Assembly: GCF_021183825.1 (NCBI RefSeq)
Contig: NZ_CP089211.1
Coordinates: 3,335,501-3,399,500 of the forward strand
Direction of reading: 5' to 3'
DNA from: Sinomicrobium kalidii
GTDB lineage: Bacteria > Bacteroidota > Bacteroidia > Flavobacteriales > Flavobacteriaceae
Length of the DNA: 64,000 nt
Translations under genes and position numbers: made by a program
In this document: piece by piece, positions 14,648-49,792 of the stretch
How the letters are laid out: every line of letters begins with the position of its first letter
Numbering within the stretch: the first letter of the stretch is position 1
The notes under the pieces: generated by a model
What the model was told of the DNA's origin: nothing
The model's input: the letters and a program-made list of their open reading frames with translations, nothing else
The model's database searches: none

Positions 14648-17600
14648 ATGAAAAACAAATGGACGAAGGAGGTACTCCTGTACGGGAGACAATTCTTAAC
14701 AGTTATCATGAAAACGTTTATATTCTGTTACTGTGTAGTGGCATTCGGCCTGGGATCTTACCACGGATTTTCACAGGATGCCAGGATAAAGATCGATACG
14801 GATAAAACCATATCCGTAGAACAGATTTTCAACCTGATAGAAAATCAGACAGATTACAGGTTTATCTACCGGCACGATCTCGTTAGGAATGCACCCCCGG
14901 TCAGGATCAGCAAGGGCGTGATCAGGGCAAGCGATTTACTTCATATGGGGTTGGAGCCCATAAATTATTCTTACGATTTTTTTAATAACACCATCATTGT
15001 AAAGCGGAAAGAAAGCATTTCCGGAACTCGTGTGGTACCCCAGAGCATTCAGGTTGAGGGGGTGGTTACCGGTAAAGACGGGGAACCGATCGGGGGAGTT
15101 ACGGTATATGTCAGTAACGTCGAACCCAGCGGGCAACGTTCTGCCCCTTCCGACTTTATAATAAGAGGAACGACAACGGACTTTGACGGTCATTTTTCAT
15201 TAGCCGCCGAACCCGGATACTTTCTTGTGGTAACCGCTCTCGGGTATGAGATGACCTACCGGAAAATCAATGCAGACCAAACGGAGTATAATATTACTTT
15301 AAAAGAGAAAGTGAATGCTCTTGAGGAGGTATTGGTCGTTGGTTATGGAACCACTAAAAAGAAAGACCTTACGGGCTCCGTCGGTTCGATCGATTCCGAA
15401 GATATTCAGCAACTGCAATCACAAACCGTGGACCAGGCCCTGGTGGGAAAGATCACCGGGGTTCATGTTTCCTCCCAGTCCGGCGGGCCGGGGAGTGGTG
15501 CCATAGTGCATATAAGGGGCCTGAGCCAGCTCATCGGGGATAACCAGCCGCTTTATGTTGTAGACGGGGTACCTATTGTCATGAACCCGCGCTTTGGTGA
15601 TGTAGGGAGTATTGGCGTTTTTGGTGACCGTGAAAACCCTTTATTGTCTATAAATCCGGATGATGTAGAACGTGTGGATGTATTAAAAGATGCGTCCTCA
15701 GCAGCCATATACGGTTCCAGGGCGGCCAACGGTGTAGTCCTGATTACCACCAAACGGGGCAAACGCAACCGGAAACCAAAACTTGATTTCTCATACAGGG
15801 CAACGGTACAAAACCCGTTAAACACCTATGATATTCTCAACACAGATCAGTACAGGGCATTCCTTACCGAACACGGTAGGGACGGTGAGGTAGACTTCGG
15901 TAATGCCGATACCGACTGGCAGGATAAGACCATTAATAATAACGCTTTATGGAACCGGTACAGCCTGAGCATGTCGGGAGGTACTCCCGATGTGAACTAC
16001 CTGGTGTCAGGAAATATAACGGACCAGGAAGGCCTTATGGCTGGGAACAAATTTACCAGGTATTCCTTCTCAAGCAGTATCGATGCCGATATTACCGAAC
16101 GGGTAAAAACAGGCTTTAATATGAGTTATAATTACTCGGTGAACAGGCAATCCGGGCTTGCAAGCTTGGCTACCGGTGGATTTTTCCGGCCGGACCTGCC
16201 CGTGTTTAATGAAGACGGTTCGTATTCCACCACCCCGGATGGCAGTTATGGCTTTACGATCAGGAACCCGTTGGGGGACCAGGCCAAAATGAGGATCAGG
16301 GCAGTTTCCCAGAATGTCGTGGGGAATATCTACGGAGAATACAAGATTATTGATGGATTGAGATTCAGGTCGCAACTAAGCGTAAACCTGAGCAACGACA
16401 GAAATTCCACCTTCAGTCCGTCTTTTACCCAGGCGGCCATGTTTTCGGCATTTTTTAGCGGTATCGAGGGCGCTACATTGAGCGTACAGCACAATGCCGG
16501 GGTCAATACTTCCTGGGCCAACACATTGAATTATAACAAAACGCTGGAAGGAGGTCATACCATAGATGCCGTAGCCGGGGTCTCCTGGGACCACTCAAAA
16601 CTGGAATTGGAATCCCAGGAATATGCCGATTTTCCCGACGACGACGTCCTGACCGATATCAGGTCGGCCAACGAGTTTATCAGTGCAAGCAGCGATGTGT
16701 TTGAAACCGCGTTAAACTCCTTTTTCGGAAGGGTGAATTATAACTACAAAGACCGCTACCTGGCTACCTTTACGGGACGTTATGACGGCTCCGTAAAATT
16801 TGGCCCGGATAATCAATGGGGATTTTTTCCTTCAGGAGCCCTGGCCTGGAATGTTCATAATGAAGCATTCCTGAAGAACAGTGTTTTCTTAAACCAACTG
16901 AAACTACGTGCGAGTTTAGGGCGTACCGGCTCCGATAATTTACCGGCATTTTCCTACCTGGCCTATTACCGGTCGCTCGGGAACAACGATTCCAGGTATG
17001 ACGATATCAACGGGATTGTTGTTGAAGGGGTTCCCAATTCCGCGATCCGGTGGGAACAGACAGATCAACTGGACCTGGGGCTGGAGTTCGGCCTGTTCAA
17101 CAACAGGCTTTACGGGGAAGTGGTATATTTTGAGAAAAACACCAGTGATATTATTCTCATGGTCCCCATATCCGCCCAGACCGGATCCTCCCGCTGGAAT
17201 GCCAATATTGCCGATGTCACCAACAAGGGATGGGAGATCGGCATTGGCGGGGATATTGTAAGGTCACCGGAATTCAGGTGGAATTCCTCTTTTAATATCT
17301 CTTTTATAAAGAATAAAGTAACGGCTTTGCATGGAGGATCCACAACGGCTTTCGGCAGTGCAGGAATCATTGAGGGAGAACCCATGGGGGTTACCGTGGG
17401 ATACGATGTGGTGGGAATTGCACAAACCCGGGGAGACATCGACGAACTGAATGCAGGTGCTCCCGGCGGTGTATATTACAGCGGCCTGGTACAACCCGGG
17501 GATTATATTTACCGGGATGTAACCGGGGACGGACAGATCACCAATGACGACCGTGTTACTTTGGGAGATATTAACCCCGACTTTTTCGGGGGGTGGAACA

Positions 17601-18085
17601 ATACCCTGAGCTATAAAAACTTTGATTTTATCTTCAACTTTAATTTTGTCAAAGGCGTTGACAGGGTCTGGGTCCGTGGAGCAAATCAGTTTGCTTTTAT
17701 AAACCCCTACAATAATGTAACTACACATGTATACGATACCTGGACCCCCGATAACCCTACGGCCCAATATGCCCGGATGATGTCTGCTACCCACGGGACC
17801 TCCGTACCGACGAGCAGGAATGTCAAGGATGCCTCCTATATCAAGCTGAGGTCCGCATCGCTGGCCTATAACATTCCCAAAAAATGGCTGGATAAAACCG
17901 GGATCAGTTATGCGCAACTTTCATTAAGCGGAAACAATTTGTTTGTCATATCAGATTACCCCGGGATTGACCCCGAAAGTGTGGACTCTCAACGTGGAGG
18001 TTCTACAGTAGATTTAACAAGGGATGGAGGCCTTGCTTATCCACAGGTGCGGACCTTTACGTTTGGAGTTAAATTAGGTTTATAA
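14648..18085 (+). CDS. SusC/RagA family TonB-dependent outer membrane receptor (locus 1)
   Basis: 1145 residues. A long N-terminal stretch with a hydrophobic segment (MKTFIFCYCVVAFGLGSYHG) precedes an STN/secretin signalling domain (ISVEQIFNLIENQTDYRFIYRHD), a carboxypeptidase-D-like regulatory domain (VEGVVTGKDGEPIGGVTVYVS...FDGHFSLAAEPGYFLVV), and the plug (GKITGVHVSSQSGGPGSGAI, PLYVVDGVPI, VDVLKDASSAAIYGSRAANG). The remaining ~850 residues form the barrel, ending in an aromatic-rich strand (VRTFTFGVKLGL). It imports an unknown ligand with its SusD partner, 15 bases downstream. The STN domain implies surface signalling to a FecR/ECF pair; the ECF is adjacent and the FecR is displaced to 23272. 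The ligand is likely a peptide rather than a glycan, since no glycoside hydrolase is near. Confidence 0.95.
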   Translation: MKNKWTKEVLLYGRQFLTVIMKTFIFCYCVVAFGLGSYHGFSQDARIKIDTDKTISVEQIFNLIENQTDYRFIYRHDLVRNAPPVRISKGVIRASDLLHMGLEPINYSYDFFNNTIIVKRKESISGTRVVPQSIQVEGVVTGKDGEPIGGVTVYVSNVEPSGQRSAPSDFIIRGTTTDFDGHFSLAAEPGYFLVVTALGYEMTYRKINADQTEYNITLKEKVNALEEVLVVGYGTTKKKDLTGSVGSIDSEDIQQLQSQTVDQALVGKITGVHVSSQSGGPGSGAIVHIRGLSQLIGDNQPLYVVDGVPIVMNPRFGDVGSIGVFGDRENPLLSINPDDVERVDVLKDASSAAIYGSRAANGVVLITTKRGKRNRKPKLDFSYRATVQNPLNTYDILNTDQYRAFLTEHGRDGEVDFGNADTDWQDKTINNNALWNRYSLSMSGGTPDVNYLVSGNITDQEGLMAGNKFTRYSFSSSIDADITERVKTGFNMSYNYSVNRQSGLASLATGGFFRPDLPVFNEDGSYSTTPDGSYGFTIRNPLGDQAKMRIRAVSQNVVGNIYGEYKIIDGLRFRSQLSVNLSNDRNSTFSPSFTQAAMFSAFFSGIEGATLSVQHNAGVNTSWANTLNYNKTLEGGHTIDAVAGVSWDHSKLELESQEYADFPDDDVLTDIRSANEFISASSDVFETALNSFFGRVNYNYKDRYLATFTGRYDGSVKFGPDNQWGFFPSGALAWNVHNEAFLKNSVFLNQLKLRASLGRTGSDNLPAFSYLAYYRSLGNNDSRYDDINGIVVEGVPNSAIRWEQTDQLDLGLEFGLFNNRLYGEVVYFEKNTSDIILMVPISAQTGSSRWNANIADVTNKGWEIGIGGDIVRSPEFRWNSSFNISFIKNKVTALHGGSTTAFGSAGIIEGEPMGVTVGYDVVGIAQTRGDIDELNAGAPGGVYYSGLVQPGDYIYRDVTGDGQITNDDRVTLGDINPDFFGGWNNTLSYKNFDFIFNFNFVKGVDRVWVRGANQFAFINPYNNVTTHVYDTWTPDNPTAQYARMMSATHGTSVPTSRNVKDASYIKLRSASLAYNIPKKWLDKTGISYAQLSLSGNNLFVISDYPGIDPESVDSQRGGSTVDLTRDGGLAYPQVRTFTFGVKLGL

Positions 18086-18100: not shown

Positions 18101-19594
18101 TTGAAAATGAAAATCAATAAAAATATATATGTCTGTATGGTGAGTTTACTTTTGATAAGCTTATCATCATGTGAACTGGCCAGGGACTTGGATGATTTTG
18201 AACCCAATTACGCATTGGATGCGGATGCAGCTATAGTAGACGAAGCAAGTGCAGAACTGGCCCTGGCCGGTGTGTATTCCGGTTTTCGCCAGCGAAGTGT
18301 AGGGGCGGGTAACCCCGAAATCTATTATATCCCTTCCCTGATGAGCGGTTTAATGCTGAACAGTTCGTTTTATACGAACCAGGAGATGCTGGGGTATGTG
18401 AATAATGCCCCCATCCCCATGAATGCTTCTACGGGACTGGGAGCGTATTCCGGGATGTACGATATTGTGAACCGCTGTAACTGGCTTATAGAAAAGGTCT
18501 CCCTGCTTTCGGATACCGATTTTGATACACCCGGGCGCCGGGCGGAAATACTGGGTGAGACCAAAGCAGTGCGGGCCACGGCAAATTTTTACCTGCTACG
18601 GCTTTTCGGACAGTTTTATGATACGGATTCCAAATACGGGATTACGCTGAGGTTGGACCCTGCCCGTTCCAATGAAGCGCTCCCCCGGAATACTGTGGCG
18701 GAGGTTTACGATGCCCTTATTGCCGATCTGGACGACGCCATTGCCAATGCCCCGGATTTGCGGGCCAAATATTATACCAATAAAACCTATGCCAGGGCTT
18801 TAAAGGCCAAAGTGATGCTGTATAAGGGCGATTATGTGGCTGCGGCAACACTGGCCGGGGAAGTCATGCACAATTCGGGAGGAAGTTTTGACCTGGCCCC
18901 GGATTATGCCGGGATTTTTGCCGATCATACAAGTCCGGCCCTGTTTGAAAGCCCGGAAGTGCTCTTCGGCTCAAAAGGCGAACCCCAGGCAGGACTCGGA
19001 ATAGGGAATTTTATGGGGTTCTGGGGAGTCGCCAATCCCGCATTTAAAACCTTTGGGGAACAGTGGATAAGCGTTGACGGTCAGAATATCACCCATGACG
19101 GTGACAGGATCGCTCAAACCACCCGGGAAGATGATCTTAATGGACTACTCCTCTCCGATAAATATCGTAACCGGGACCTGGTGGGAGAAAATTACGAAAT
19201 GATCTATCACCTGAGGATGGCCGAAGTTTACCTGGTCTATGCCGAAGCCCATGCCAGGAGCAATAATAGTGTCACCCCCGAAGCCCTGGAAGCCCTGAAT
19301 GCTGTTAGAACCAGGGCCGGCGCCACAACTACCGGGGAAGATGGTTTCGAAACCTATCCTGCTTCCATTTCTTTGGAACAATTCCTGGAGGCTATTCGCA
19401 TAGAAAAATATATAGAACTGGCCATGGAGACCGGCGAAGAGTGGTTTGACCTGGTACGCTACCATTTTATTGATGGCTTTGATGTTACTTTGGTAAAACC
19501 TACAGCTACGGACCCTGACAAGTATATTTTGCCGATTGACGGGGTGACCATCGAAGCCGGGAACAATGTCGTGGAACAAAATCCCGGGTATTGA
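18101..19594 (+). CDS. SusD/RagB family surface lipoprotein (locus 1)
   Basis: 497 residues. A lipoprotein signal ends in ISLSSC (lipobox; MVSLLLISLSSC), followed by ELARDLDDFEP. The body shows SusD-type TPR-like helices (NRCNWLIEKV, ARALKAKVMLYKGDYVAAATLAGEVM) and the conserved C-terminal parts MAEVYLVYAEAHAR, LNAVRTRAGA, AIRIEKYIELAMETGEEWFDLVRY. It would act as the lid that captures ligand above the SusC barrel. The gene starts 15 bases after susC and is expected to be co-transcribed. Divergence from locus 2 SusD (38436-39842) is large, so the two systems probably take different ligands. Confidence 0.95.
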   Translation: MKMKINKNIYVCMVSLLLISLSSCELARDLDDFEPNYALDADAAIVDEASAELALAGVYSGFRQRSVGAGNPEIYYIPSLMSGLMLNSSFYTNQEMLGYVNNAPIPMNASTGLGAYSGMYDIVNRCNWLIEKVSLLSDTDFDTPGRRAEILGETKAVRATANFYLLRLFGQFYDTDSKYGITLRLDPARSNEALPRNTVAEVYDALIADLDDAIANAPDLRAKYYTNKTYARALKAKVMLYKGDYVAAATLAGEVMHNSGGSFDLAPDYAGIFADHTSPALFESPEVLFGSKGEPQAGLGIGNFMGFWGVANPAFKTFGEQWISVDGQNITHDGDRIAQTTREDDLNGLLLSDKYRNRDLVGENYEMIYHLRMAEVYLVYAEAHARSNNSVTPEALEALNAVRTRAGATTTGEDGFETYPASISLEQFLEAIRIEKYIELAMETGEEWFDLVRYHFIDGFDVTLVKPTATDPDKYILPIDGVTIEAGNNVVEQNPGY

Positions 19595-19629: not shown

Positions 19630-21138
19630 ATGAAAGTAAAACATATTATTTTAAGCATAAGTTGCCTGTTGTTTGCCTTTTCGGGATATCCCCAGGTGAA
19701 TAAAGAGGACATCAGGGTGTTATTTGTAGGATTTGATCCGCAAATGCCTATGCCCGGGGATATAGAGAACAACTCCAAAATAAATGGCGGAATGACCCCG
19801 GAACGTTTCAGGGAAGATTATCAAACAAGGTTTCCCGCCTTTGAAAACTATCTGAAGAGCTATTTTACGGAAGTGCAGACGGTGGATGCCCGTAATTATA
19901 AGGTGGAAATGTCCGGTAACTACGATGTTACCATTTTCGACCAGGTTATAAAGCCGTGGAAGGAAGAAACCCGGGAAACAGGCAAAGACGGCAAAATGAA
20001 GTATGAACCTGCCAAATATTTAACCGAAGACTTTGATCATGCAACAATTTTTATAGGTCATACGTCACCGGTTATGGGGCAAAGTGTAGGTACAAAGTTA
20101 GACTGGTTGTGCTTATGTTTAGATGCCGATGCCCATCATTTAAAGACAGAGCACGCCATATTTAAAGGCCCTTTTCCTGTAGCATTGACTTTTGAAACAA
20201 AACCTACTCCCGAAGGTATATATCATTATCCCTCCGGAAAAAACATACCAAAAGAGATTCCTATGTGGCGTGTGCAAAAAGAAGGTTATTTAGAGAGTAA
20301 AGGGTATAGAGTAGGAATGGTATCCAGAGGAGATGGGTTTTTGGATTCCCCTGATGCTGAATATATTTCAAGTGGTGTGAATACAAAAGATGTCGGCGCT
20401 GTTGCTATTGGCCGCCATGCCAATTTCTTTATGTGGGGATTTTCCGGCTCACCGGATTATATGACTGAAGAGGCTAAACAGGTGTTCGCCAATGCTGTGG
20501 TCTATATGAAACAGTTCAAGGGACAAAAACCGATTGCCAGAAAATACAACGACCGCATTGCTACTAAAGATTATATAGATAATATTATAGGCAGGTTAAA
20601 TAAAGAATCTTTTGAAGATACAAAGACCTACTACGAGCAGCTTAACCGGCAAATGGCAGAAACCGTCAGGAAACTGGAAGAAAAGAAAAACAAGGGTGAG
20701 ACACTTACGGAAATGGAGGAGATGGTATTGAAAGCACAATCAAAACCAATGCCTATACCCGATTGGGAACAATACGTACAACAAATTTCAAGAGAATTTT
20801 TCAGACCGGAATATGTAAATAATGTCGGGGCTTTAAAACAGTTTTTAAGAGAGAACAGAAAGTACATGTTTTCTGAACCTGACGGATTTTATGCATTACA
20901 AATTGATGAGGATTTAAAAAAATTGGGAATCGGTAATGATGAAAAATCGATGTTTCCGGTATGTATTGAACTCTTGAAAGACGATAGTAAATCTGAAATG
21001 GCCAGGCGTGTCCTTAAACGATATACAGGTATGGAGAAAACCCGAAAAGAGTGGGGGCAATGGTTTGAAGAAAACAGGGATAAGCTGTTTTTTACCGAGA
21101 CCGGGGGCTATAAATGGTTAATAAATACAATAAAATGA
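19630..21138 (+). CDS. Secreted ThuA/class I glutamine-amidotransferase-like protein
   Basis: 502 residues with a signal peptide (MKVKHIILSISCLLFAFSGYPQ). The N-terminal half resembles the ThuA/class I GATase-like fold: IRVLFVGFDPQ as first strand, FENYLKSYFTEVQTV, YDVTIFDQVI, then WGFSGSPDYMTEEAKQVFANAVVYMKQF, close to the ending seen in ThuA-like proteins. The C-terminal half is helical with long charged coils (residues ~320-370) and closes with KEWGQWFEENRDKLFFTETGGYKWLIN, the WxxWxxxNRxxLFF-GGYK tail found in related secreted proteins of Bacteroidota and Planctomycetes. No catalytic Cys is evident. It is in the susCD operon (35-base gap) and overlaps the next gene by 4 bp (ATGA), so its task is periplasmic or surface handling of the imported ligand. 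Confidence 0.55.
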   Translation: MKVKHIILSISCLLFAFSGYPQVNKEDIRVLFVGFDPQMPMPGDIENNSKINGGMTPERFREDYQTRFPAFENYLKSYFTEVQTVDARNYKVEMSGNYDVTIFDQVIKPWKEETRETGKDGKMKYEPAKYLTEDFDHATIFIGHTSPVMGQSVGTKLDWLCLCLDADAHHLKTEHAIFKGPFPVALTFETKPTPEGIYHYPSGKNIPKEIPMWRVQKEGYLESKGYRVGMVSRGDGFLDSPDAEYISSGVNTKDVGAVAIGRHANFFMWGFSGSPDYMTEEAKQVFANAVVYMKQFKGQKPIARKYNDRIATKDYIDNIIGRLNKESFEDTKTYYEQLNRQMAETVRKLEEKKNKGETLTEMEEMVLKAQSKPMPIPDWEQYVQQISREFFRPEYVNNVGALKQFLRENRKYMFSEPDGFYALQIDEDLKKLGIGNDEKSMFPVCIELLKDDSKSEMARRVLKRYTGMEKTRKEWGQWFEENRDKLFFTETGGYKWLINTIK

Positions 21139-21653
21139 GAAAAATCATTAAGGTTAGTTTTATTACGGTTTGTCTCTTTATTACCTCTTTAACTTTTTCT
21201 CAAAACAGAATTGATGCCGGTTTTAAGCAGGTAGTAAGTGAAGCATCTGATAAACTATGGGTAAGTCAACCGGATATGTCTGATCCTGTTACAGTAAATG
21301 CGGAATTAGTGTGGAGTAATAACAGAGAACAACTTGCCGTTGTGATGAAGGTCCGGGTTTTGGAGAACTGGCATATTTATGCCTACGTACCCGGTTCCCA
21401 ACCCTACATTACTACCGAGTTGAAGCTGTCCGTTCCCGATGGGGTAACCCCGGTGGACAAATGGGAAAAACCAGGTGCATACCCATCTGCGGACGGCGTC
21501 TATATTTATGAAGGAAGCCTGGTTTTCGTGCATTATTTTTCTGTTGACAAACCGGTAAAGGAAAAGCAGATAGAGACAGGGCTTTATTACCAGACCTGTG
21601 ATTTGAAACAATGTTTACCTCCCCAAACAAAAATGAGGAAGTTGACACTATAG
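21135..21653 (+). CDS. Stand-alone DsbD N-terminal domain protein (nDsbD), periplasmic
   Basis: 172 residues with a signal peptide (MRKIIKVSFITVCLFITSLTFS). The mature part matches the immunoglobulin-like alpha domain of DsbD: ELVWSNNREQLAVVMKVRVLENWHIYAYVPGSQPY, GSLVFVHYFSVDKP, and the redox pair YYQTCDLKQCLPPQTK (Cys-5x-Cys), which is the site that in DsbD receives electrons from the membrane part and passes them to periplasmic thioredoxin-like partners. Here the domain is a separate gene without any membrane or C-terminal Trx domain. ATG 21135 overlaps the previous stop (ATGA); the longer reading from 21114 would bury the signal. It is upstream of a TlpA gene and could serve as a soluble electron shuttle. 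Confidence 0.85.
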   Translation: MRKIIKVSFITVCLFITSLTFSQNRIDAGFKQVVSEASDKLWVSQPDMSDPVTVNAELVWSNNREQLAVVMKVRVLENWHIYAYVPGSQPYITTELKLSVPDGVTPVDKWEKPGAYPSADGVYIYEGSLVFVHYFSVDKPVKEKQIETGLYYQTCDLKQCLPPQTKMRKLTL

Positions 21654-21689: not shown

Positions 21690-22925
21690 ATGAATTGTGT
21701 TATACGTATTTTAAGCATAGTGATCCCGGCATTCCTTTTAGGGTGTAATCCGGAAAAAGAAAAACTCCCTGAAAATACGTTCCGTATAAAGGGGCATATT
21801 AAAGGGGTTGAAAACGGAACGGTAAAAATAACCTCCCGGGACATGGAAACAAGGAATTCAATAACATTTGATTCTGCGCAGATCACAGGCGGAAGCTTCA
21901 CACTCGAAGGACCATTGACCTCTCCGAGGGAATTAAACCTGATGATCCCGAAGGGAGGAGTAACCTATTACGCCGGTATTATGAGCGATAAAAGCGTTAT
22001 GGAGCTCCGACTGGACACCGCCGGTTACGAAAGAAAAATGAATAATTATGTAAGCCTGACCCCCGAGGTGAGAGGTTCTGCTTTTCACGAGGAATACAGA
22101 TCGTATGAGGCCCTTATTAAACCGTTTAGAGATAGGATTTCCGTAATATCCGAATCCTATAATAAACTGAACGAACTGTATATTGCTGCCCGGAAAAAAG
22201 AAGATAAAGAAGCAGCTGATAAATACAAGGAGGAATTAGAGGAGTTAAAACTGAAAATGGAGCCTTTTCGGGAACAAATGGATTCTGTTACGGATAAATA
22301 TATTGCCGGTCATCCCGGAAGTTATGTTTCGGCATATTTAATGTCCATGAAGGTAGCAGGCTATGGGCTGGAAAAGTCGACCGTTATTTATGATCAAATG
22401 CCTCCTGAAATACAAGGTGGATTTTATGGGACTTCCGTAAAAAAACAGCTTGAAAAACTCAAAAAGGCATCACCCGGAGCGGAAGCCGCACTGTTTACTG
22501 CGACCGATATTAACGGGGAAGAATTAAAGTTGGAAGATTACAGGGGACAGTATGTTTTACTCGATTTCTGGGCAAGCTGGTGCGTACCATGCCGTAAAGG
22601 AAATCCCCATCTTTTAAAAATCTATGAAAAATACCGGGGCAAAGGTTTTGAAATTATCGGTATTTCGGATGATGATAGCAATCCGGAGGCCTGGCATAAA
22701 GCCGTGGAGGAAGACGGAATAGGTGTGTGGAAACATGTGCTGAGAGGTTTGAAAGTGGACAGGTCCGAAGGATATAAAGTATTGGATAAAGGAATAAGCG
22801 AAAATTATGATATCCATTTTTTACCTACCAAAATCCTCATAGATCCGAAAGGGATCATTATAGGCAGGTACGGGAGTGAGGAAGAACCCCTGGATGCCAA
22901 ACTGGAGGAGGTATTCGGGGAATAA
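21690..22925 (+). CDS. TlpA-family disulfide reductase lipoprotein, WCVPC (TlpA-1)
   Basis: 411 residues. A lipoprotein signal (IVIPAFLLGC) is followed by a DUF4369 domain (FRIKGHIKGVENGTVKITSRD...GGSFTLEGPL) and a helical spacer (residues ~115-240). The C-terminal thioredoxin domain has W-C-V-P-C around residues 297-301 (DFWASWCVPCRK), then cis-Pro region FLPTKILIDPKG. Such proteins are anchored in the envelope and reduce disulfides in periplasmic or surface substrates, taking electrons from DsbD. It ends the susC-susD-ThuA-nDsbD-TlpA group; a 346-base gap then leads to the FecR gene. Confidence 0.92.
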   Translation: MNCVIRILSIVIPAFLLGCNPEKEKLPENTFRIKGHIKGVENGTVKITSRDMETRNSITFDSAQITGGSFTLEGPLTSPRELNLMIPKGGVTYYAGIMSDKSVMELRLDTAGYERKMNNYVSLTPEVRGSAFHEEYRSYEALIKPFRDRISVISESYNKLNELYIAARKKEDKEAADKYKEELEELKLKMEPFREQMDSVTDKYIAGHPGSYVSAYLMSMKVAGYGLEKSTVIYDQMPPEIQGGFYGTSVKKQLEKLKKASPGAEAALFTATDINGEELKLEDYRGQYVLLDFWASWCVPCRKGNPHLLKIYEKYRGKGFEIIGISDDDSNPEAWHKAVEEDGIGVWKHVLRGLKVDRSEGYKVLDKGISENYDIHFLPTKILIDPKGIIIGRYGSEEEPLDAKLEEVFGE

Positions 22926-23093: not shown

Positions 23094-23215
23094 TATAAAC
23101 AGGGATGGAATCCGGATGAGTTAACCGGGGTTATTTGGAGCCTGGTACGGGAATGACTACATAACATTCCCGTGCCTTTGGAAAAACGAAATCATGATTT
23201 AAAGAAAAAAAGTAG

Positions 23216-33350: not shown

Positions 33351-33376
33351 GTAGTAAAAAGCCCCTGTCACATATT

Positions 33377-41204: not shown

Positions 41205-42335
41205 ATGAAAGCAACAAGATGGGGCATATTGTGCTTCGGCATCGCTTTTTGGGTATCGTGTGCAGAAAAGAAAGAACACAAAGGATATGCAGTTACAGGA
41301 AATATAGAAGGACTTGATAATGGAACTGTATACCTGGAACCGGTTGGAGAAGCAGGGAAACCGGATTCTTCCCTTGTCGAAAACGGCGGATTCAGTTTTA
41401 ACGGCGTACTGGAAGAACCGCTCCGGTACAGGTTAAAGGTGAAGGGAGGAGAAGATCGGGGTATGACCTTTATCCTTAGTAATGATATTATTGAAATCGA
41501 GGCTGAAAAGGATTCGCTGTTCAGGGGAAAAATTACGGGAGCTTCAGTAGAAGAGGTGTACCGTAGTTATTACGAAAATGAATTTCAGGAACTCCGGGAA
41601 ATGGCCGGGCCTGTTTACAGATTATCGGATTCCATCACGCAGCAGGGCAAAGTGGAAATGACCCCGGAGCAAAGGGCCGTGATGGATAAAAAATGGGATG
41701 AGTTAGATAAAAAATCAGCTTCGATAACTACGGACTTCATACGGAAACATACTAATTCCGTTGCCTCGGCATTGATTATTCAGGAAAGATATATTACCTA
41801 CCCGAATTTAGAAATGGCCGACAAATTATATAACAGCCTGAGCCCGGAAGTTCAGGAATCCCATTATGGGAAGCAACTGCATGCTTCACTGGCTACAATG
41901 AAGAAAACGGCCGTCGGGAATAAAGCCCCGGACTTTACCCAACCCGACCGGGAAGGGAACAGGGTCAGCCTTTCGGATTTCAGGGGACAATATGTTTTCC
42001 TGGACTTCTGGGCAAGCTGGTGTGCCCCCTGCAGGAAGGAGAATCCCAATGTCCTGGAGGCTTACAAAAAATACCACGAGGCAGGCCTGGAGATTGTGGC
42101 TGTATCCCTGGACGACAAGAAAGACAAGTGGGAAAAAGCCATTGAAGAAGACGGGTTGACCTGGCTTCACCTTTCCGATCTTAAGGGATTTAAGAACGAG
42201 GCGGCCCAGGAGTATGGAGTCCAGGCCATACCTCAGAATTTTCTAATCGATCCGCAGGGGCAGATTATCGGTAAAAATTTGAGGGGAGAAGGCTTACAGG
42301 AAAAGTTAAAGGAAGTTTTTGAACCGGTCAATTGA
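41205..42335 (+). CDS. TlpA-family disulfide reductase lipoprotein, WCAPC (TlpA-5)
   Basis: 376 residues. Lipoprotein signal (WGILCFGIAFWVSC), DUF4369 (YAVTGNIEGLDNGTVYLEPVGE...NGGFSFNGVLEEPLRYRL), helical middle, then the thioredoxin domain with FLDFWASWCAPCRKENP (WCAPC at 272-276), AVSLDDKKDKWEKAIEEDG and cis-Pro AIPQNFLIDPQG. It is more similar to TlpA-2 (25070) in the thioredoxin part than to its neighbour TlpA-4 (shared SLDD...AIEEDxL...LSDLKGF), which suggests that the two loci exchanged or duplicated gene pairs. Downstream is the M16 gene (158-base gap). Confidence 0.92.
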   Translation: MKATRWGILCFGIAFWVSCAEKKEHKGYAVTGNIEGLDNGTVYLEPVGEAGKPDSSLVENGGFSFNGVLEEPLRYRLKVKGGEDRGMTFILSNDIIEIEAEKDSLFRGKITGASVEEVYRSYYENEFQELREMAGPVYRLSDSITQQGKVEMTPEQRAVMDKKWDELDKKSASITTDFIRKHTNSVASALIIQERYITYPNLEMADKLYNSLSPEVQESHYGKQLHASLATMKKTAVGNKAPDFTQPDREGNRVSLSDFRGQYVFLDFWASWCAPCRKENPNVLEAYKKYHEAGLEIVAVSLDDKKDKWEKAIEEDGLTWLHLSDLKGFKNEAAQEYGVQAIPQNFLIDPQGQIIGKNLRGEGLQEKLKEVFEPVN

Positions 42336-42493
42336 CTAAAGACTGTGTTAAACAATACTAAAAGATCCTTTTTAATACAGAGGTAAAAAACAAATCAATC
42401 ATTTAAAAATAGGCAGACAAGGATTTCGCCGGATGTTTACCGGTGAACGGGAAACTTTTTGCATCATCTTATCACACTAAACAGAAAAATAAC

Positions 42494-45247
42494 ATGAAAA
42501 ACAATGTTTTGGGATTGCTTTGCTTTTTAATCATTGCAGTCGCTCCGGCCCAGGTTTCGGACAAATTCAAGAAGAACAAGGAGTTAGGGGGGATCGAGGA
42601 ATACGAATACCAGCCCAACGGCTTAAAGATACTGCTGTTACAGGACAACAGCACCCCGGTGGTGACCGTACAGGTCGTATATCACGTAGGTTCCACGAAC
42701 GAGGTCAGCGGGACCACCGGGGCCACGCATTTGCTCGAACATTTGATGTTCAAGGGGACACCGAAATTTAACAAGCGAAAGGGCACGGCCATTTTTCCCA
42801 CGCTACAGAACGTTGGCGCAAGAATGAATGCCACTACATGGTACGACCGTACCAATTATTATGAGACCATTCCCAGTGACCAGATCGAACTGGCTCTGGA
42901 AATAGAGGCCGACCGGATGCGGAATTCCCTTTTGCTTGAGGAGGACAAGGCAAGTGAGATGACCGTGGTGCGCAATGAATTCGAACGGGGAATGAACAGC
43001 CCCGCCCGCCTGTTGCAGAGCCAGATCTGGTCCGTGGCCTATATGGCAAGTCCTTACCATCATTCCACTATAGGCTGGAGATCGGATATAGAAAACGTAC
43101 CTATGGAAAAACTCCGGGAGTTTTACGACACCTATTACTGGCCCAACAATGCCACACTTACGGTGGTCGGGGATTTTCAAAAGGACGAGGTGTTCCGGCT
43201 GGTGGATAAGTATTTCGGAAAGATCACGAGGTCCCCTCACGAGATCCCGCAGCCCTATACCACGGAACCGGAACAATTGGGCCCCCGTAAACTCGTGGTA
43301 AAAAGACCGGGGAAAGTCGGAATTGTGACCAGGGCCTATAAGATTCCCGGAAAACGTCACGAAGACTATCCTGCACTGGAAGTGTTATCCGATCTTTTGG
43401 CGGCAGGCCCTTCCTCCATTTTAAACAAGACCTATGTAGATACCGGGATCGCCCTGTACGCCAGGGCCGGGGCCAATGCTTTTAAAGATGCCGGGCTGTT
43501 TACGATCGATCTGGGAATAAATTCCGAAAAGGAACATGAGGACATTGATTCAAAATTAATAACGACTATAGACAGTATTAAGGCTCTTGATTTTAACCAG
43601 GATGATATCGACCGTATCCTGTCCAAAAAGGAAGCACAAAATATATTGTACAGGGATGGTTCCGGTGTAATTTCCTCCATGCTCAACGAAGCCATTGCCT
43701 CTGGTGATTGGACCGGTTATGTCACGGATATCGAAAAACTAAAGAAAGTGACCAGAGAAGATGTTAAAAGGGTAGCCCGAAAATACCTGGATATAAACCA
43801 GAGTACTACCGGATATTTTATTCCTGAAAACAGCGATCCGAAACAGGGAGGAAATCCCGGTTCGCAGGGGGAAGACAAAGGGTCAAAAATGTTTTTCAGG
43901 GATCCCGGCCTCGTCATGGGAACAGAAGCAGAAGTATCTCCCCGAAAAGAAGATGATCTCAAAGCTGTTGCGGGGATTAATTCCAAAATAAAAAGAAAGG
44001 AGGTGGCAGGTATTGATGTCATCAGCCTGAAAACCTCGGCCAAAGACTTCGTTTCGGTCAATGGCAGTCTTTCGATTGGCGATTATATGGAATCCGGGGA
44101 GAATGAGCTGATCCCCATGCTTACGGCTTACATGCTCAACAAGGGGACACAGCAAAAAAACAAGGTTGAATTTTCCCAGGCGCTTGAAAAGTTGGGGGTA
44201 CATATCTCCGCATCGGCTTCGGACCGGAATATCCATTTTTCCTTTAAATGCCTGAAAAAAGATATTCCCGAAGTGATAAGCCTGTTTTCGGAAGCATTGA
44301 AAATACCCTTGTTTGATAATAATGAATTTAACCTGTTGAAGGGGCAGCTTAAAGGCAATATGAGCGAACAGCTCAATGACCCGGGAAGGCAGGCCAGGAT
44401 CAAACTGTTACAGACCATTTATAAACCCGGTCACCCGAATTACGCCCGGTCTACCGAAGAAAGCCTGGAATTGCTCGACAAGGCCACGATAGAAGAAGTA
44501 AAAGCCTTTCACAAAAAATATTTCGGCACGGCCTCGTTCCGCCTGGTTGTGGTTGGGGATGTGGATGAAGAAAAAGTACACACGGCATTAAAAAATAATT
44601 TTTCCAACTGGAAGGGTGGAGTCCAGGAGGATCTGGACGTTGAAAAGACTGATGAGGTCATGGAGATAGCTTCCAGGAAAACAGAGAAAGTTTTTATTCC
44701 CGAAAAGAGCAGTGCCGAATTACTGATCGGTCAATATACCGGGCTGAATGAAAAAGATCCGGATTATATGGCGTTCTACCTGGCCAATTCAATCTTGGGG
44801 TCCGGCTTCTCGGGCAGGCTAATGGCCACGGTCAGGGACAATGAAGGCCTTACCTACGGCATAGGTTCCGGGCACAATGGTGATGCATTGACAGGAGGAT
44901 ACTGGACCGTCAATGGCACTTTTAACCCGGATTTGATGGATAAGGGATATGAATCCACCATGCGGGAAATCAATAAGTGGTATGCCGATGGAGTGACAAG
45001 GAAAGAGCTCGAAAATATAAAATCCTATCTCACGGGAAGCTATAAAGTAGGAATGTCAACGACAAGGAGTCTTGCCGGTACCCTCATGAATTTTGTCAAT
45101 AAGGGCTATGCACCCGAATATATTTACGAGTACCCTTCAAAAATTATGGAACCCGGTCTGGATGAGGTCAACAAAGCCATAAAAAAATACCTGGACCCTG
45201 AGAAACTGGTTATTGTAAAAGCCGGAACGTTGGGAAACAATGATTAA
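42494..45247 (+). CDS. M16 zinc peptidase, secreted (locus 2)
   Basis: 917 residues from ATG 42494; signal peptide MKNNVLGLLCFLIIAVAPAQV. The zinc motif H79-L-L-E82-H83 (ATHLLEHLMFKGT) is in the first M16 half, with the third ligand glutamate in MTVVRNEFERG about 75 residues later. The second half (from about residue 480) lacks the motif and carries the RY-like substrate-binding region (LTYGIGSGHNGDALTGGYWTV). It differs strongly from the locus 1 M16 peptidase (29705), so different peptides may be cut. The upstream in-frame ATG at 42443 is rejected because it hides the signal peptide. The gene overlaps dsbD by 8 bases. Confidence 0.94.
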   Translation: MKNNVLGLLCFLIIAVAPAQVSDKFKKNKELGGIEEYEYQPNGLKILLLQDNSTPVVTVQVVYHVGSTNEVSGTTGATHLLEHLMFKGTPKFNKRKGTAIFPTLQNVGARMNATTWYDRTNYYETIPSDQIELALEIEADRMRNSLLLEEDKASEMTVVRNEFERGMNSPARLLQSQIWSVAYMASPYHHSTIGWRSDIENVPMEKLREFYDTYYWPNNATLTVVGDFQKDEVFRLVDKYFGKITRSPHEIPQPYTTEPEQLGPRKLVVKRPGKVGIVTRAYKIPGKRHEDYPALEVLSDLLAAGPSSILNKTYVDTGIALYARAGANAFKDAGLFTIDLGINSEKEHEDIDSKLITTIDSIKALDFNQDDIDRILSKKEAQNILYRDGSGVISSMLNEAIASGDWTGYVTDIEKLKKVTREDVKRVARKYLDINQSTTGYFIPENSDPKQGGNPGSQGEDKGSKMFFRDPGLVMGTEAEVSPRKEDDLKAVAGINSKIKRKEVAGIDVISLKTSAKDFVSVNGSLSIGDYMESGENELIPMLTAYMLNKGTQQKNKVEFSQALEKLGVHISASASDRNIHFSFKCLKKDIPEVISLFSEALKIPLFDNNEFNLLKGQLKGNMSEQLNDPGRQARIKLLQTIYKPGHPNYARSTEESLELLDKATIEEVKAFHKKYFGTASFRLVVVGDVDEEKVHTALKNNFSNWKGGVQEDLDVEKTDEVMEIASRKTEKVFIPEKSSAELLIGQYTGLNEKDPDYMAFYLANSILGSGFSGRLMATVRDNEGLTYGIGSGHNGDALTGGYWTVNGTFNPDLMDKGYESTMREINKWYADGVTRKELENIKSYLTGSYKVGMSTTRSLAGTLMNFVNKGYAPEYIYEYPSKIMEPGLDEVNKAIKKYLDPEKLVIVKAGTLGNND

Positions 45248-47282
45248 CTCTATGAGAAAAACAAGGTTTTGCCGTATAAAACGTTTTGCCCTGTTGCTGG
45301 TGATCGGACTGGCAGGGATGTTAAATACCCAGGCACAAATTTACGACCCTGTAACGTGGACAACAGAAGTTGAAACCGTTTCAGAGCATGAATATATGCT
45401 GTGGATAAAAGCCTCCATAAAGCCCGGGTGGCACCTGTATTCCCAGGTTGTTCCCGAGGACGGCCCGGTAGCTACGGAATTTTCCTTTGAGGAATCCGGG
45501 GCATATCGTTTGGTCGGTAGTGTTGAGGAGGAAAAAGGCCATACGGTACACGATCCCGTATTTGATATGGAGATCACCTATTTCTCCGGTTCGGCTGCGT
45601 TTTCACAAAAGATTACTTCCAAAGGGAATGATGGTTTTACGATTGAGGGAGAAGTCACCTATATGGTCTGTGATGAACAGCGTTGTCTTCCGCCGGAAAC
45701 CAAAAAGTTGAGTTTTACCATTCCGGGAGAAAACGGGGCTGTCACCGCTGTCGAAACAAAGGAGAATGATATCGACAAAGAAAGAGTGACGGAAAGTGCT
45801 GATCCTGCCGACGTGTCGGGAAAAGGGGAGCACCGGGAAAGTCAAAAGGGACTTTTCACCATCTTTTTAATCGCTTTCCTTTCAGGGTTCGCCGCATTGC
45901 TGACGCCTTGTGTGTTCCCCATGATCCCCATGACGGTAAGTTTCTTTACCAAACAAAGCAAGACAAGGGCAGCCGGGATCAAAAATGCCGTTTTTTACGG
46001 GATTTCCATCGTGGTGATCTATGTGTTTTTAGGATCATTGGTCACGGCCGTTTTCGGAGCGGATTCCCTGAATGCGTTATCCACCAATGTTTGGTTTAAC
46101 GTGATCTTCTTTTTACTGCTGGTGGTATTTGCCGCCTCGTTCCTGGGAGCTTTTGAGATCGTACTGCCACACTCATGGGCCAATAAGGTGGACAGCCAGG
46201 CCAATAAAGGAGGGATCATCGGGATCTTGTTTATGGCCCTGGCCCTGGCCATTGTTTCATTTTCGTGTACAGGCCCTATTGTGGGCACTTTATTGGTGGA
46301 AGCTGCCAGTAAAGGCGGATTGGCCCCCGTCATCGGGATGCTGGGCTTCTCCCTGGCATTGGCCTTGCCATTTATGTTGTTTGCCATGTTCCCGGGATGG
46401 TTAAATTCCTTACCGCGATCGGGAGGATGGCTGAACTCGGTAAAAGTCGTTTTGGGATTTTTAGAGCTGGCCCTGGCCTTTAAATTTTTGTCGAATGCCG
46501 ACCTGGTATTGCAGTTACACTGGCTGGAAAGGGAAGTGTTTATTGCCGTCTGGATTGCCATTTTCGGTATGCTGGCCCTGTACCTCTTCGGGAAGATCAG
46601 CCTGCCCCACGATTCGCCCCTGAAACACATTTCAGTAGGTCGTTTGGGATTAGGATTGTTGGTCTTATCGTTTACCGTCTACCTGGTCCCCGGCCTTTGG
46701 GGAGCCCCGTTAAAACTTATCAGTGGTTTTCCGCCGCCCATGCATTACAGCGAATCCCCTTACGGGGTAGGTTATACCAAAAGCAGTGGAAGCGGTGCTT
46801 CACATACGGAATTGCCCGAAGGTGCACATTATGGCCCCCACGATATTGTGGCCTTCCTCGATTATGAGAAAGGGATGGCCTATGCCGGAAAGGTGGATAA
46901 ACCGGTGATGATCGATTTTACCGGCCATGCCTGTGTCAACTGCAGGAAGATGGAAGAGCGCGTATGGAGCGAAAGCGAAATATTAAACATCCTGAACAAT
47001 GAGATCGTGCTTATTTCCCTGTATGTCGACGATAAGCGGGAATTGCCTGAAAACGAGCAGTACGTATCTGAAACCACCGGAAAGGAGATCAAAACCATAG
47101 GGAATAAATGGAGTGATTTCCAGATCACCAGGTACAAGGCCAATGCACAACCGTATTACGTCCTGGTCAATCACGAAGGCAGGAACCTTAACGACCCTGC
47201 CGGGTATACACCGGAGGTGGATGAATACGCAGCCTGGCTGAACGAAGGAATTAAAAACTACACTAAAAACAAACAGCGATGA
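45240..47282 (+). CDS. dsbD: Thiol:disulfide interchange protein DsbD (locus 2)
   Basis: 680 residues (ATG 45240; ATG 45252 is an alternative). Alpha domain with the redox pair VCDEQRCLPPETK, a membrane core with LLTPCVFPMIPMTVSFF and VSFSCTGPIVGTLL, and a C-terminal thioredoxin domain with CVNC (FTGHACVNCRKMEERVW). Compared with the locus 1 DsbD it has a longer linker before the membrane part (KENDIDKERVTESADPADVS) and an insertion after the last helix (SESPYGVGYTKSSGSG). Overlap with the M16 gene by 8 bases shows tight co-expression of peptidase and electron donor. It is followed by the PLP enzyme and TrxB genes, which complete the electron path from NADPH. Confidence 0.95.
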   Translation: MINSMRKTRFCRIKRFALLLVIGLAGMLNTQAQIYDPVTWTTEVETVSEHEYMLWIKASIKPGWHLYSQVVPEDGPVATEFSFEESGAYRLVGSVEEEKGHTVHDPVFDMEITYFSGSAAFSQKITSKGNDGFTIEGEVTYMVCDEQRCLPPETKKLSFTIPGENGAVTAVETKENDIDKERVTESADPADVSGKGEHRESQKGLFTIFLIAFLSGFAALLTPCVFPMIPMTVSFFTKQSKTRAAGIKNAVFYGISIVVIYVFLGSLVTAVFGADSLNALSTNVWFNVIFFLLLVVFAASFLGAFEIVLPHSWANKVDSQANKGGIIGILFMALALAIVSFSCTGPIVGTLLVEAASKGGLAPVIGMLGFSLALALPFMLFAMFPGWLNSLPRSGGWLNSVKVVLGFLELALAFKFLSNADLVLQLHWLEREVFIAVWIAIFGMLALYLFGKISLPHDSPLKHISVGRLGLGLLVLSFTVYLVPGLWGAPLKLISGFPPPMHYSESPYGVGYTKSSGSGASHTELPEGAHYGPHDIVAFLDYEKGMAYAGKVDKPVMIDFTGHACVNCRKMEERVWSESEILNILNNEIVLISLYVDDKRELPENEQYVSETTGKEIKTIGNKWSDFQITRYKANAQPYYVLVNHEGRNLNDPAGYTPEVDEYAAWLNEGIKNYTKNKQR

Positions 47283-47353: not shown

Positions 47354-48805
47354 ATGGAAGTACACTTGGAAGAACATTTTAAGACTTTCCGGGATCATAC
47401 TATAGGAGATCAGAACGTTTTTCAATCGCCCTACGGGGAGCAGAAAGTATTGTATGCCGACTGGATTGCCACCGGAAGGTTATACGGTCCGATCGAGGAT
47501 AAAATAAAAGATAAGCTGGGTCCGTATCTGGCCAACACGCATTCCTTTTCCAGTGAAACAGGAAAGATCACAACAGAGATCTACAGGGATGCCCGGTCCA
47601 TTATCAGGAAGCATGTCAATGCCGGTGAGGATGATATTTTAATAACAACCGGTTCCGGGATGACCGGGGCCCTGTCCCGGCTGATCGGCATTCTGAAACT
47701 CCGGAAAGATCAGGTAAGATACGATACGGAAAGACCAGTGGTGTTTATCACCCATATGGAACATCATTCCCATCATGTGCCCTGGTTTGAAACCCATGCC
47801 GATGTTGTTATAGTCCCTCCCGGTGAAGATATGATGCCATGTCCAGAACAACTGGCGGAACAGGTGAAGCAATATGAGGGGCGCAAACTCAAAATAGGAG
47901 CCTTTACGGCATGCTCGAATGTTACGGGGCTAATTACCAATTATTCTGAACTGGCCCGGGTAATGCACCAGTATGGAGGCTACTGCTTTGTTGATTTTGC
48001 GGCCGCTGCACCCTATGTGGATATCCATGTGCACTCTGAAAATAAAGACGAGCGGTTGGATGCCGTTTCCTTTTCCCCGCACAAATTTCTGGGCGGGCCG
48101 GGTGCTTGTGGTATTCTGGTCTTTAATAAGGAGCTCTATCGGGTTTCAACTCCCGAGATCCCGGGCGGGGGAAACGTCAAATGGACAACGCCCTGGGGAG
48201 AGCACGCCTATTTTGATGCTATAGAGACCCGGGAAGACGCCGGAACTCCTGGCATTATACAAACGATCAGGGCTGCGCTGGCCATCAAATTAAAGGAACA
48301 GCTCGATCCGCAATTGATGGCAGAAAGAGAGCAGGAGTTGATGGACTGTTTTATGAACGAATTACACGGGGTAAGAGAAATTGAATTTTTAGGGAATACC
48401 CGGGCCAAAAAGATCGGGTGCATCTCCTTTAACATCAATGCAATGCACTACAATCTCGTGGTACGGCTGTTAAACGACCGCTTTGGTATCCAGGTCCGGG
48501 GCGGGTGGTCCTGTGCAAGTACGTACGCCCATTACCTGTTCGGACTGGACAAGGCTGTATCTGCCTCCATCATGGATCGGATCGATCAGGGAGATTTGAG
48601 CAATAAACCCGGTTGGGTACGTGTTTCCATGCACCCCACCATGGATTTTGATGAGATCCGGTACATCGCCGGGGCCATAAAAGAGATGATACGGAATAAG
48701 GACGAATGGCAAAAGGATTACAGGTACAATCCTTCGGATAATGAATTCGAATATATTCATGACATCCGTACGGATTCTGAAAAGGAAGAATTTTTTGAAC
48801 TATAG
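47354..48805 (+). CDS. Class V aminotransferase-fold PLP enzyme (cysteine desulfurase-like)
   Basis: 483 residues, cytoplasmic, no signal. The PLP lysine is K244 in FSPHKFLGGPGACGILVF, with the preceding FVDFAAAAPYVDI aspartate. A C-terminal RGGWSCASTYAHYL loop has a cysteine in the position where this subgroup (SufS/CsdA/isopenicillin-N-epimerase-like) often has one; whether it forms a persulfide cannot be told. Possible activities are cysteine desulfuration or lyase action on another amino acid. It fits the locus if imported peptides deliver cysteine. The gene lies 72 bases after dsbD and 33 bases before trxB, so the three are very likely co-transcribed. Confidence 0.85.
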   Translation: MEVHLEEHFKTFRDHTIGDQNVFQSPYGEQKVLYADWIATGRLYGPIEDKIKDKLGPYLANTHSFSSETGKITTEIYRDARSIIRKHVNAGEDDILITTGSGMTGALSRLIGILKLRKDQVRYDTERPVVFITHMEHHSHHVPWFETHADVVIVPPGEDMMPCPEQLAEQVKQYEGRKLKIGAFTACSNVTGLITNYSELARVMHQYGGYCFVDFAAAAPYVDIHVHSENKDERLDAVSFSPHKFLGGPGACGILVFNKELYRVSTPEIPGGGNVKWTTPWGEHAYFDAIETREDAGTPGIIQTIRAALAIKLKEQLDPQLMAEREQELMDCFMNELHGVREIEFLGNTRAKKIGCISFNINAMHYNLVVRLLNDRFGIQVRGGWSCASTYAHYLFGLDKAVSASIMDRIDQGDLSNKPGWVRVSMHPTMDFDEIRYIAGAIKEMIRNKDEWQKDYRYNPSDNEFEYIHDIRTDSEKEEFFEL

Positions 48806-48838: not shown

Positions 48839-49792
48839 ATGAAAGAAAATATAAAGTGTCTTATCATCGGATCAGGGCCGGCGGGTTACACGGCGGCCAT
48901 TTATGCGGCCAGAGCGAATATGAACCCCGTTTTATATCAGGGAACCCAACCGGGCGGGCAATTGACCACAACCAATGATGTGGAAAATTTTCCGGGATAC
49001 CCGGAGGGCATAACAGGCCCGGAGATGATGATCCAATTACAGCAACAGGCCGAACGTTTCGGAACAGACATCAGGGACGGATGGGCCACGAAAGTTGATT
49101 TTACCGGCCCCGTTCATAAAGTATGGATCAATGATACCATAGAACTTCATTGTGAAACCGTAATTATTGCGACAGGAGCCTCGGCCAGATACCTGGGATT
49201 ACCTTCGGAACAAAAATATCTCCGGTCAGGAGGCGGTGTTTCGGCTTGCGCAGTGTGTGACGGTTTTTTCTATCGTAACCAGGAGGTGGTTATTGTGGGA
49301 GCAGGAGATTCGGCCTGTGAGGAAGCCCATTACCTTTCGAAATTATGCAGGAAAGTCACCATGCTGGTCAGACGTGATGAATTCCGGGCCTCGAACATTA
49401 TGGAAGCGAGGGTCCGCAAAACAAAAAACATTGAGATCCTGTTCAATACCGAAACAGAAGAGGTATTGGGAGACGGGCAACTGGTGACAGGAGTGCGTAT
49501 AAAAAACAATATCACCGGAAAAACCACAGACATCCCTGCCACCGGATTTTTCGTAGCCATAGGGCACCAACCGAACACGGATATCTTTAAAGGTCATCTC
49601 CAGCTGAACGAAACAGGATACATTATTAATACTCCGGGCACGGCACAGACCAGTGTGGAAGGTGTTTTTGTATGCGGAGATGCGGCCGATCACGTTTACC
49701 GGCAGGCTATTACCGCGGCCGGGACCGGGTGTATGGCCGCCCTTGAAGCCGAACGCTATTTGTCCTCGGTTGAGTTGAGTACAGTTGAATAA
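48839..49792 (+). CDS. trxB: Thioredoxin reductase
   Basis: 317 residues, normal length. FAD motif GSGPAGYTAAIYAA at the N-terminus, active site C137-A-V-C140 (SACAVCDGFFYR), NADPH motif GAGDSACEEAHYLSK, and the C-terminal FAD part GVFVCGDAADHVYRQAITAAGTG. It uses NADPH to reduce thioredoxin, the cytosolic donor for DsbD. Its position at the end of the dsbD-containing locus is the best sequence evidence that the operon is built to push electrons to the periplasm. Whether this is the only TrxB of the cell is unknown. The second copy of the structured 3' element follows 18 bases after the stop. Confidence 0.95.
   Translation: MKENIKCLIIGSGPAGYTAAIYAARANMNPVLYQGTQPGGQLTTTNDVENFPGYPEGITGPEMMIQLQQQAERFGTDIRDGWATKVDFTGPVHKVWINDTIELHCETVIIATGASARYLGLPSEQKYLRSGGGVSACAVCDGFFYRNQEVVIVGAGDSACEEAHYLSKLCRKVTMLVRRDEFRASNIMEARVRKTKNIEILFNTETEEVLGDGQLVTGVRIKNNITGKTTDIPATGFFVAIGHQPNTDIFKGHLQLNETGYIINTPGTAQTSVEGVFVCGDAADHVYRQAITAAGTGCMAALEAERYLSSVELSTVE

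Follow-up and report, generated by a model that had tools for sequence, protein, structure and literature searches.

SusC/SusD outer-membrane systems (SusCD) are mostly read as importers of glycans, although for many such pairs a cargo has yet to be assigned. Among the other proteins that concern us here, DsbD draws electrons from thioredoxin in the cytosol and hands them to thioredoxin-fold proteins in the periplasm; M16 peptidases enclose unfolded substrates. That an M16 enzyme may cut what has been imported has a precedent in FusC, which processes an imported protein (PMC6793856); that one may cut cysteine-rich peptides has a precedent in HrrP, an M16A peptidase that degrades nodule-specific ones (PMC12731061). 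In PMC7782687 it is suggested that SusCD transporters have an overall size limit near 5 kDa; such a limit would suit small disulfide-rich peptides. We report on two gene assemblies, locus 1 and locus 2, in a stretch of 64,000 nucleotides from Sinomicrobium kalidii (contig NZ_CP089211.1, 5.36 Mb, positions 3,335,501-3,399,500; this whole stretch is called the window below), where SusCD pairs are accompanied by TlpA, DsbD and M16 genes. The assembly is real and recurs, and we read it as a form of TonB-dependent, protease-associated import, its function being what we infer; the pairing of DsbD with PLP5, a class V pyridoxal-phosphate (PLP) enzyme, is new and well supported.

The genes were identified by Pfam, NCBIfam and motif scans; 30 window proteins, including the main open reading frames (ORFs) of both loci, were scanned by Pfam, and signal peptides and lipoproteins were called by eye. 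Locus 1 opens with a divergent gene for an extracytoplasmic function (ECF) sigma factor and has its FecR gene in the middle: ECF1 (minus strand), SusC1, SusD1, U502, nDsbD, TlpA1, FecR1, TlpA2, TlpA3, DsbD1, M16_1. The order in locus 2 is ECF2 (minus strand), FecR2, SusC2, SusD2, TlpA4, TlpA5, M16_2, DsbD2, PLP5, TrxB. The initial annotation had listed two SusCD pairs, five lipoprotein TlpAs, two full DsbDs, two M16 peptidases, an extra nDsbD domain and, in locus 2, a class V PLP enzyme with TrxB; all of them are present with the expected catalytic motifs, and the U502 gene (502 amino acids, aa) had been overlooked there. Each TlpA combines an AhpC-TSA/Redoxin domain and DUF4369 with a WCxPC motif (WCVPC, WCGPC, WCKPC, WCAPC and WCAPC, in order); both DsbDs have three domains and keep the CX4C pair of the N-domain, two cysteines of the transmembrane domain and CVNC; the extra nDsbD domain retains its cysteine pair; and the motif of the peptidases is HFLEH in M16_1 and HLLEH in M16_2. 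Both receptors pass the SusC/RagA model TIGR04056, and both SusDs pass the SusD Pfam cut-offs.

The loci had been called paralogous, which is a loose description. SusC1 and SusC2 are 27% identical, SusD1 and SusD2 23%, the M16 peptidases 27% over 214 aa only, and DsbD1 and DsbD2 47%. Locus 2 as a simple duplicate of locus 1 is ruled out by the first three of these values; because SusC, SusD and M16 diverge so strongly, we regard the loci as similar assemblies. The RagA and BT_2264 chains match both SusCs, and RagB matches both SusDs, in no case as the top match.

We tentatively propose that each locus serves, under ECF/FecR control, the uptake of a cargo of protein nature, with short peptides that contain disulfide bonds as the most likely kind; this cargo would be reduced and cut in the periplasm. 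We consider this quite possible, though still short of probable. SusC/SusD would carry the cargo into the periplasm, where the TlpA lipoproteins would reduce its disulfides and be recharged by DsbD, which would itself be fed with electrons by thioredoxin and TrxB in the cytosol. Once opened, the chain would be cut by the clam-shell M16 peptidase and, in sister loci, also or instead by another protease, and PLP5 would remove sulfur from cysteine in the cytosol. U502 may act as an additional partner in the periplasm, with the nDsbD encoded alongside serving it. The cargo, the order of the steps, the periplasmic site of TlpA and the reaction of PLP5 are what we infer in this scheme.

The assembly recurs. 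A third locus of the same genome (L008, 4.297-4.315 Mb, about 0.9 Mb away) reads ECF-FecR-SusC-SusD-TlpA-nDsbD-DsbD-TlpA-M16-PLP5-TrxB, and a further one (L012) reads ECF-nDsbD-FecR-SusC-SusD-M16. The order SusD-TlpA-TlpA-M16-DsbD-PLP5 is kept in another genus, in two of its genomes (L078, where SusC is in view, and L075, a further SusC2-type locus located via PLP5 and cut within SusD), and a third genus has SusC-SusD-TlpA-M16-DsbD-three ATP-binding cassette (ABC) genes-PLP5-TrxB (L138). The components are drawn from different subfamilies in different loci. The best relatives of M16_1 (73-80%) stand in six Sinomicrobium loci, and its nearest characterised chains are, by sequence, PqqL and FusC (6ofs, 2.4e-65; 6b03, 1.3e-45); in the open-access literature we found no paper on the structures 9LDY and 8YPT/8YPU.

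The proteases of the sister loci vary. The protease is M16 in L138 and L197 (in the latter SusC is in view on the opposite strand). In L144 a trypsin/PDZ protease lies between TlpA and DsbD and M16 was not found; L143, in the same genome, likewise lacks M16 and has a trypsin/PDZ protein 99.5% identical to that of L144. An aspartyl protease (L106) and an S9/S33-like hydrolase (L105) each stand beside M16, not in its place, and no protease was identified in L145, L173 and L202, where part of the unmatched ORFs was scanned. This variety favours a protein or peptide cargo, while the evidence for replacement of one protease by another is thin. Two side observations belong here. ABC-2 exporter genes lie inside the SusCD-M16 loci L138 (DUF3526, by Pfam) and L104 (ABC-like by eye, from the first residues), perhaps indicating a peptide with its own export. 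The S. kalidii genome has another DsbD, 83% identical to DsbD1 (L010, 4133427-4135385); nothing matching SusCD was seen there within the 16 kb viewed.

The firmest statistic of this work is the DsbD-PLP5 pair, and it is independent of SusCD. In 60 Flavobacteriaceae genomes of 60 genera we used every DsbD_TM match outside the own genome whose open frame reaches 440 aa or more, 69 in all, and annotated by BLAST about 9 kb on each side where the contig allowed. Same-strand neighbours were PLP5 in 12 loci (13 with two contig-end fragments, L181), SusC in 10, TlpA (300 aa or longer) in 8, SusD in 6, M16 in 4 and TrxB in 1; the SusC counted for L143 belongs to the neighbouring L144, L143 having its own SusD in view. 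In 10 of these 12 loci DsbD is immediately followed by PLP5, with a gap of 20-246 bases (ORFs of at least 120 aa). PLP5 has 29 copies in the 59 non-own genomes, spread over 28 of them, and 12 copies are near dsbD against 0.18 expected under random placement (18-kb windows, 3.3-Mb genomes, one genome per genus, relatedness uncorrected). SusC or SusD together with TlpA was found in L138, L143, L144, L145 and L202, and M16, PLP5 and TrxB are added to SusCD-TlpA in L138 only. A general DsbD-M16 partnership in the family was rejected, M16 being on the same strand in only four of the 69 loci, in one of them (L178) about 8 kb off with a 700-aa ORF. Apart from SusCD, dsbD is directly followed by a class V PLP gene in six Flavobacteriaceae genera (L137, L149, L160, L174, L184, L187; no SusC/SusD by BLAST), and in other genomes of the family a TlpA gene is directly upstream of PLP5 where DsbD was not found (L076, L079, L080, L082).

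PLP5 itself resembles cysteine desulfurases. Its best NCBIfam match is SufS, below the cut-off of that model, and its closest PDB chains are cysteine desulfurases (8d8s_A was aligned); Lys244, Cys387, His138, Asp214 and Arg382 are invariant in 53 of 53 distinct sequences, and the position aligned to a SufS Gln, a residue with a known functional role, is Cys or Ala. The nearest named homologue is from Sinomicrobium (88%). As no signal peptide was seen by eye, PLP5 should be cytosolic. The suggestion that the PLP enzyme may use the cysteine gains from the desulfurase-like sequence and the strong linkage to dsbD. The active-site variant (A217/W385 versus C217/C385) was tried as a marker of SusCD linkage and dropped, since SusCD-linked loci fall in both groups.

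U502 gave no Pfam or NCBIfam match, nothing under E 0.065 among PDB sequences and no Foldseek match at E ≤ 0.001; its structure is predicted with a mean pLDDT (predicted local distance difference test) of 91.4, and a part at about 26-297 may be ThuA/GATase1-like. It has 976 homologues, C161 and C163 are invariant in an alignment of 55 sequences, and four homologues (P0051, P0090, P0108, P0110) carry a fused DsbD_N (nDsbD-like) domain. A 647-aa ORF of this kind lies in the SusCD-TlpA-M16 locus of a Sinomicrobium metagenome-assembled genome (MAG; L025). At E ≤ 1e-40 the 295 genomes of the class yielded the own match only, although L025, L098 and many metagenomic proteins carry U502. A bolder version of our proposal joins these parts into a dedicated line for cystine-rich peptides in Bacteroidota, running from the outer membrane to the cytosol, with SusCD import, unlocking by TlpA/DsbD with U502 as a new redox protein served by nDsbD, proteolysis, and desulfuration by a DsbD-partnered enzyme that shares the thioredoxin pool. 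We find this version conceivable and, on the whole, doubtful.

Several results weigh against the proposal of peptide uptake. The SusC1 search (E ≤ 1e-260, two candidates scored per genome) gave SusC1-type receptors in 10 of 397 family genomes, the own included, with 10 non-own matches; the L096/L117 contig ends after SusD. In the nine evaluable loci, for which stretches were fetched, TlpA follows in eight (the exception is L101); M16 is found in two (L094, L098), full DsbD in one (L097), nDsbD in one (L098) and PLP5 in one (L097). SusC2-type receptors are in 4 of the 397 genomes, the own included; all three non-own loci have TlpA, two have DsbD (L078, L114), and one has M16 and PLP5 (L078), as does L075, which also has DsbD. 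Because TlpA alone is an almost constant neighbour of the orthologous SusCD, we consider SusCD-TlpA the core, and DsbD, proteases, PLP5 and TrxB optional. Furthermore, true replacement of M16 was seen in one genome only, and 17 of the 29 PLP5 copies lie away from DsbD. The closest solved SusC to SusC1 is 8aa4_A, which we take to be a glycan transporter, its record reading "SusC homolog" only.

The own genome adds little. It has 74 SusD-like matches, of which 69 are over the cut-off; the zones reaching 15 kb to either side of the 74 make up 34% of the genome and include three of five full DsbDs (P 0.22), four of six M16 places (P 0.11) and 7 of 11 DUF4369 genes over the cut-off (P 0.04). The association with SusCD is clearer across genomes than within this genome. 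Starting from M16_1, matches were found in 31 of 149 genomes of the class, the own included. Of the four family loci outside the own genome, three have DsbD next to M16 (L105-L107) and three have SusCD near by (L104-L106). Outside the family, 21 of 29 loci were fetched; SusC was found in one (L113), TrxB in one (L108) and a stray ECF gene in three (L109, L120, L132), and in all 21 SusD, TlpA and DsbD were absent by BLAST, which again counts against our proposal. Another 13 loci (L029-L041), mostly from MAGs titled Bacteroidales or other phyla, have SusC in two (L031, L035). Since few outside-family loci among those viewed carry SusCD partners, the association is mainly, not wholly, a feature of Flavobacteriaceae. 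L035 reads ECF-FecR-SusC-SusD-M16-TlpA on a MAG contig titled Lachnospiraceae, which is likely a mis-binned Bacteroidota contig.

The disulfide-peptide system of the initial annotation is partly supported. In its favour are the gene content, the recurrence in other genera, the further or replacing proteases of sister loci, the DsbD_N fusions of U502 homologues and the desulfurase-like enzyme linked to dsbD; against it, M16 and DsbD are inconstant neighbours of the orthologous SusCD pairs, and the clustering of DsbD and M16 with SusCD in the own genome fails to reach significance. The survey of genomes it called for gives SusCD-TlpA as a near-constant pair and does not give DsbD and M16 as fixed partners.

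The same counts can be read as uptake of a glycan or another nutrient, with TlpA/DsbD only keeping the transporter or surface lipoproteins reduced or folded and the protease serving quality control: TlpA is the only near-constant companion of SusCD, clustering in the own genome is weak, and 8aa4_A, the solved SusC closest to SusC1, is one that we take to carry glycans. However, glycan-active enzymes beside SusCD, by which a polysaccharide-utilisation locus is recognised, were absent from the 30 scanned proteins (no glycoside hydrolase family matched, as previously noted), proteases recur in sister loci, and PLP5 and TrxB are hard to account for, so we regard this reading as unlikely.

Still less likely, in our opinion, is piracy of metalloproteins as in the Fus system, where SusCD would import a small metal or Fe-S protein, TlpA/DsbD would reduce its ligand cysteines or metal, M16 would cut it and PLP5 would handle the sulfur. 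ECF/FecR pairs often control iron uptake, and the position of M16_1 next to PqqL and FusC is in line with this; in clusters of the Fus type, FusC goes with a TonB receptor, and in some of them also with other redox proteins (PMC6793856). Yet the receptors are of the SusC/RagA type, no iron-uptake gene beyond the FecR-type regulators matched in the scanned proteins, and a ferredoxin, which we take to be about 10 kDa, exceeds the suggested 5 kDa. Defence or sensing, in which cysteine-rich antimicrobial or signalling peptides are imported, reduced and cut for reasons other than food, is improbable: HrrP (PMC12731061) and the ABC genes of L138 and L104 speak for it, but no ABC transporter matched in the scanned window proteins and no known immunity gene is present.

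Table 1. Features of the two loci (window coordinates).
Feature	Position	Strand	Evidence or remark
Locus 1			
ECF1 sigma factor, divergent	13583-14188	-	PF04542 47.1, PF08281 47.1 bits
61-bp element upstream of SusC1, candidate regulatory region	14269-14329	+	90% identical to 23206-23266
SusC1, TonB-dependent SusC/RagA receptor	14648-18085	+	TIGR04056 822.1 bits, cut-off 368.25
SusD1, lipoprotein lid	18101-19594	+	PF07980 69.8, PF14322 56.3 bits
U502, secreted, unnamed family	19630-21138	+	signal peptide by eye; putative ThuA/GATase1-like part about 26-297; invariant C161, C163
nDsbD-like domain, stand-alone	21114-21653	+	PF11412 29.7 bits, cut-off 25; Cys 162/167; listed ORF overlaps U502
TlpA1 lipoprotein, WCVPC	21690-22925	+	PF00578, PF14289
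Copy of element 14269-14329, directly upstream of FecR1	23206-23266	+	90% identity
FecR1 anti-sigma factor	23272-24438	+	PF04773 65.0, PF16344 72.0 bits
Copy of SusC1 upstream/start region (14551-14654), putative scar of a lost second SusC start	24439-24541	+	86% identity
TlpA2 lipoprotein, WCGPC	25028-26155	+	likely start near 25070
TlpA3 lipoprotein, WCKPC	about 26175-27359	+	ORF listed from 26052
DsbD1, three domains	27427-29379	+	PF11412 33.8, PF02683 85.5, PF13899 42.6 bits
M16_1 peptidase, HFLEH, PqqL/FusC-like single chain	29705-32491	+	PF05193 146 bits; PDB 9ldy, PqqL 6ofs, FusC-type 6b03
Locus 2			
ECF2 sigma factor	32702-33244	-	Pfam
FecR2 anti-sigma factor	33344-34525	+	Pfam
SusC2, with N-terminal STN-like stretch	34762-38328	+	TIGR04056 554.7 bits; PF07660 22.4 bits, below its cut-off
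SusD2	38400-39842	+	PF14322 123 bits; likely start near 38436
TlpA4 lipoprotein, WCAPC	39851-41041	+	Pfam, motif
TlpA5 lipoprotein, WCAPC	41205-42335	+	Pfam, motif
M16_2 peptidase, HLLEH	42443-45247	+	PF05193 214.4 bits; likely start near 42494; PDB 5euf, 4nnz, 3amj
DsbD2, three domains	45240-47282	+	PF11412 46.1, PF02683 88.7, PF13899 35.9 bits
PLP5, class V PLP enzyme, cysteine-desulfurase-like	47354-48805	+	Lys244, Cys387; PF00266 156.6 bits; TIGR01979 (SufS) 141.7, cut-off 475.1
TrxB thioredoxin reductase	48839-49792	+	TIGR01292 376.4 bits, cut-off 343.45

Locus 1 bears traces of its history. M16_1 and the M16 of L008 are 100% identical as proteins and 99.75% as DNA over 29685-32492 (L008 13682-16491), which is almost exactly the gene, and their neighbours differ; identity so confined to the gene points to recent gene conversion or replacement. 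In S. oceani (L027) PLP5-TrxB follows M16_1, whereas locus 1 has neither. Since what follows TrxB in L008 and L027 is matched by the spacer after M16_1 (32545-32702), locus 1 has probably lost PLP5 and TrxB. The two repeat pairs of Table 1 (14269-14329/23206-23266 and 14551-14654/24439-24541) suggest that locus 1 may be a merger of two tandem SusCD loci, as if one fecR and one susCD had been lost. Beside ECF1, 12755-13516 encodes a secreted-looking protein of 253 aa without a Pfam match; S. pectinilyticum encodes a relative (89% identity) close to an M16_1 gene (L022).

Coupling import to reduction would, if true, be a new kind of processing, and it would allow the cargo of some "orphan" SusCD loci to be predicted by a rule. 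The DsbD-PLP5 operon pair offers a concrete handle on how thiol reduction in the periplasm may be linked to cysteine metabolism. In searches of one open-access full-text library we found no description of the gene set or of the DsbD-PLP5 link; SusD, TlpA and FecR all occur in PMC10434189.

Among the described systems, RagAB and Bt2261-64 share the SusC/RagA and SusD/RagB families with our loci, and their ligands are oligopeptides; a TlpA/DsbD/M16 set is not described for them in the accessible text of PMC7782687. With the Fus and PqqL-YddB systems the loci have in common a TonB receptor and a single-chain M16 of the PqqL/FusC type (M16_1, judging by sequence), and differ in having SusCD in place of FusA, together with TlpA, DsbD, PLP5 and TrxB; both receptors pass the SusC/RagA model, no FusA model having been run. 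The main text of PMC6793856 contains none of the words SusD, thioredoxin, disulfide and DsbD. The periplasmic DsbD-TlpA relay has the same three-domain DsbD with its cysteine pairs and TlpA with WCxPC, which here go together with SusCD and with an enzyme resembling cysteine desulfurases. This enzyme, PLP5, shares with SufS/CsdA the family, the PLP lysine and the catalytic cysteine; it differs from them in its score below the SufS cut-off, in the Cys or Ala at the Gln-aligned position, and in standing often in an operon with dsbD.

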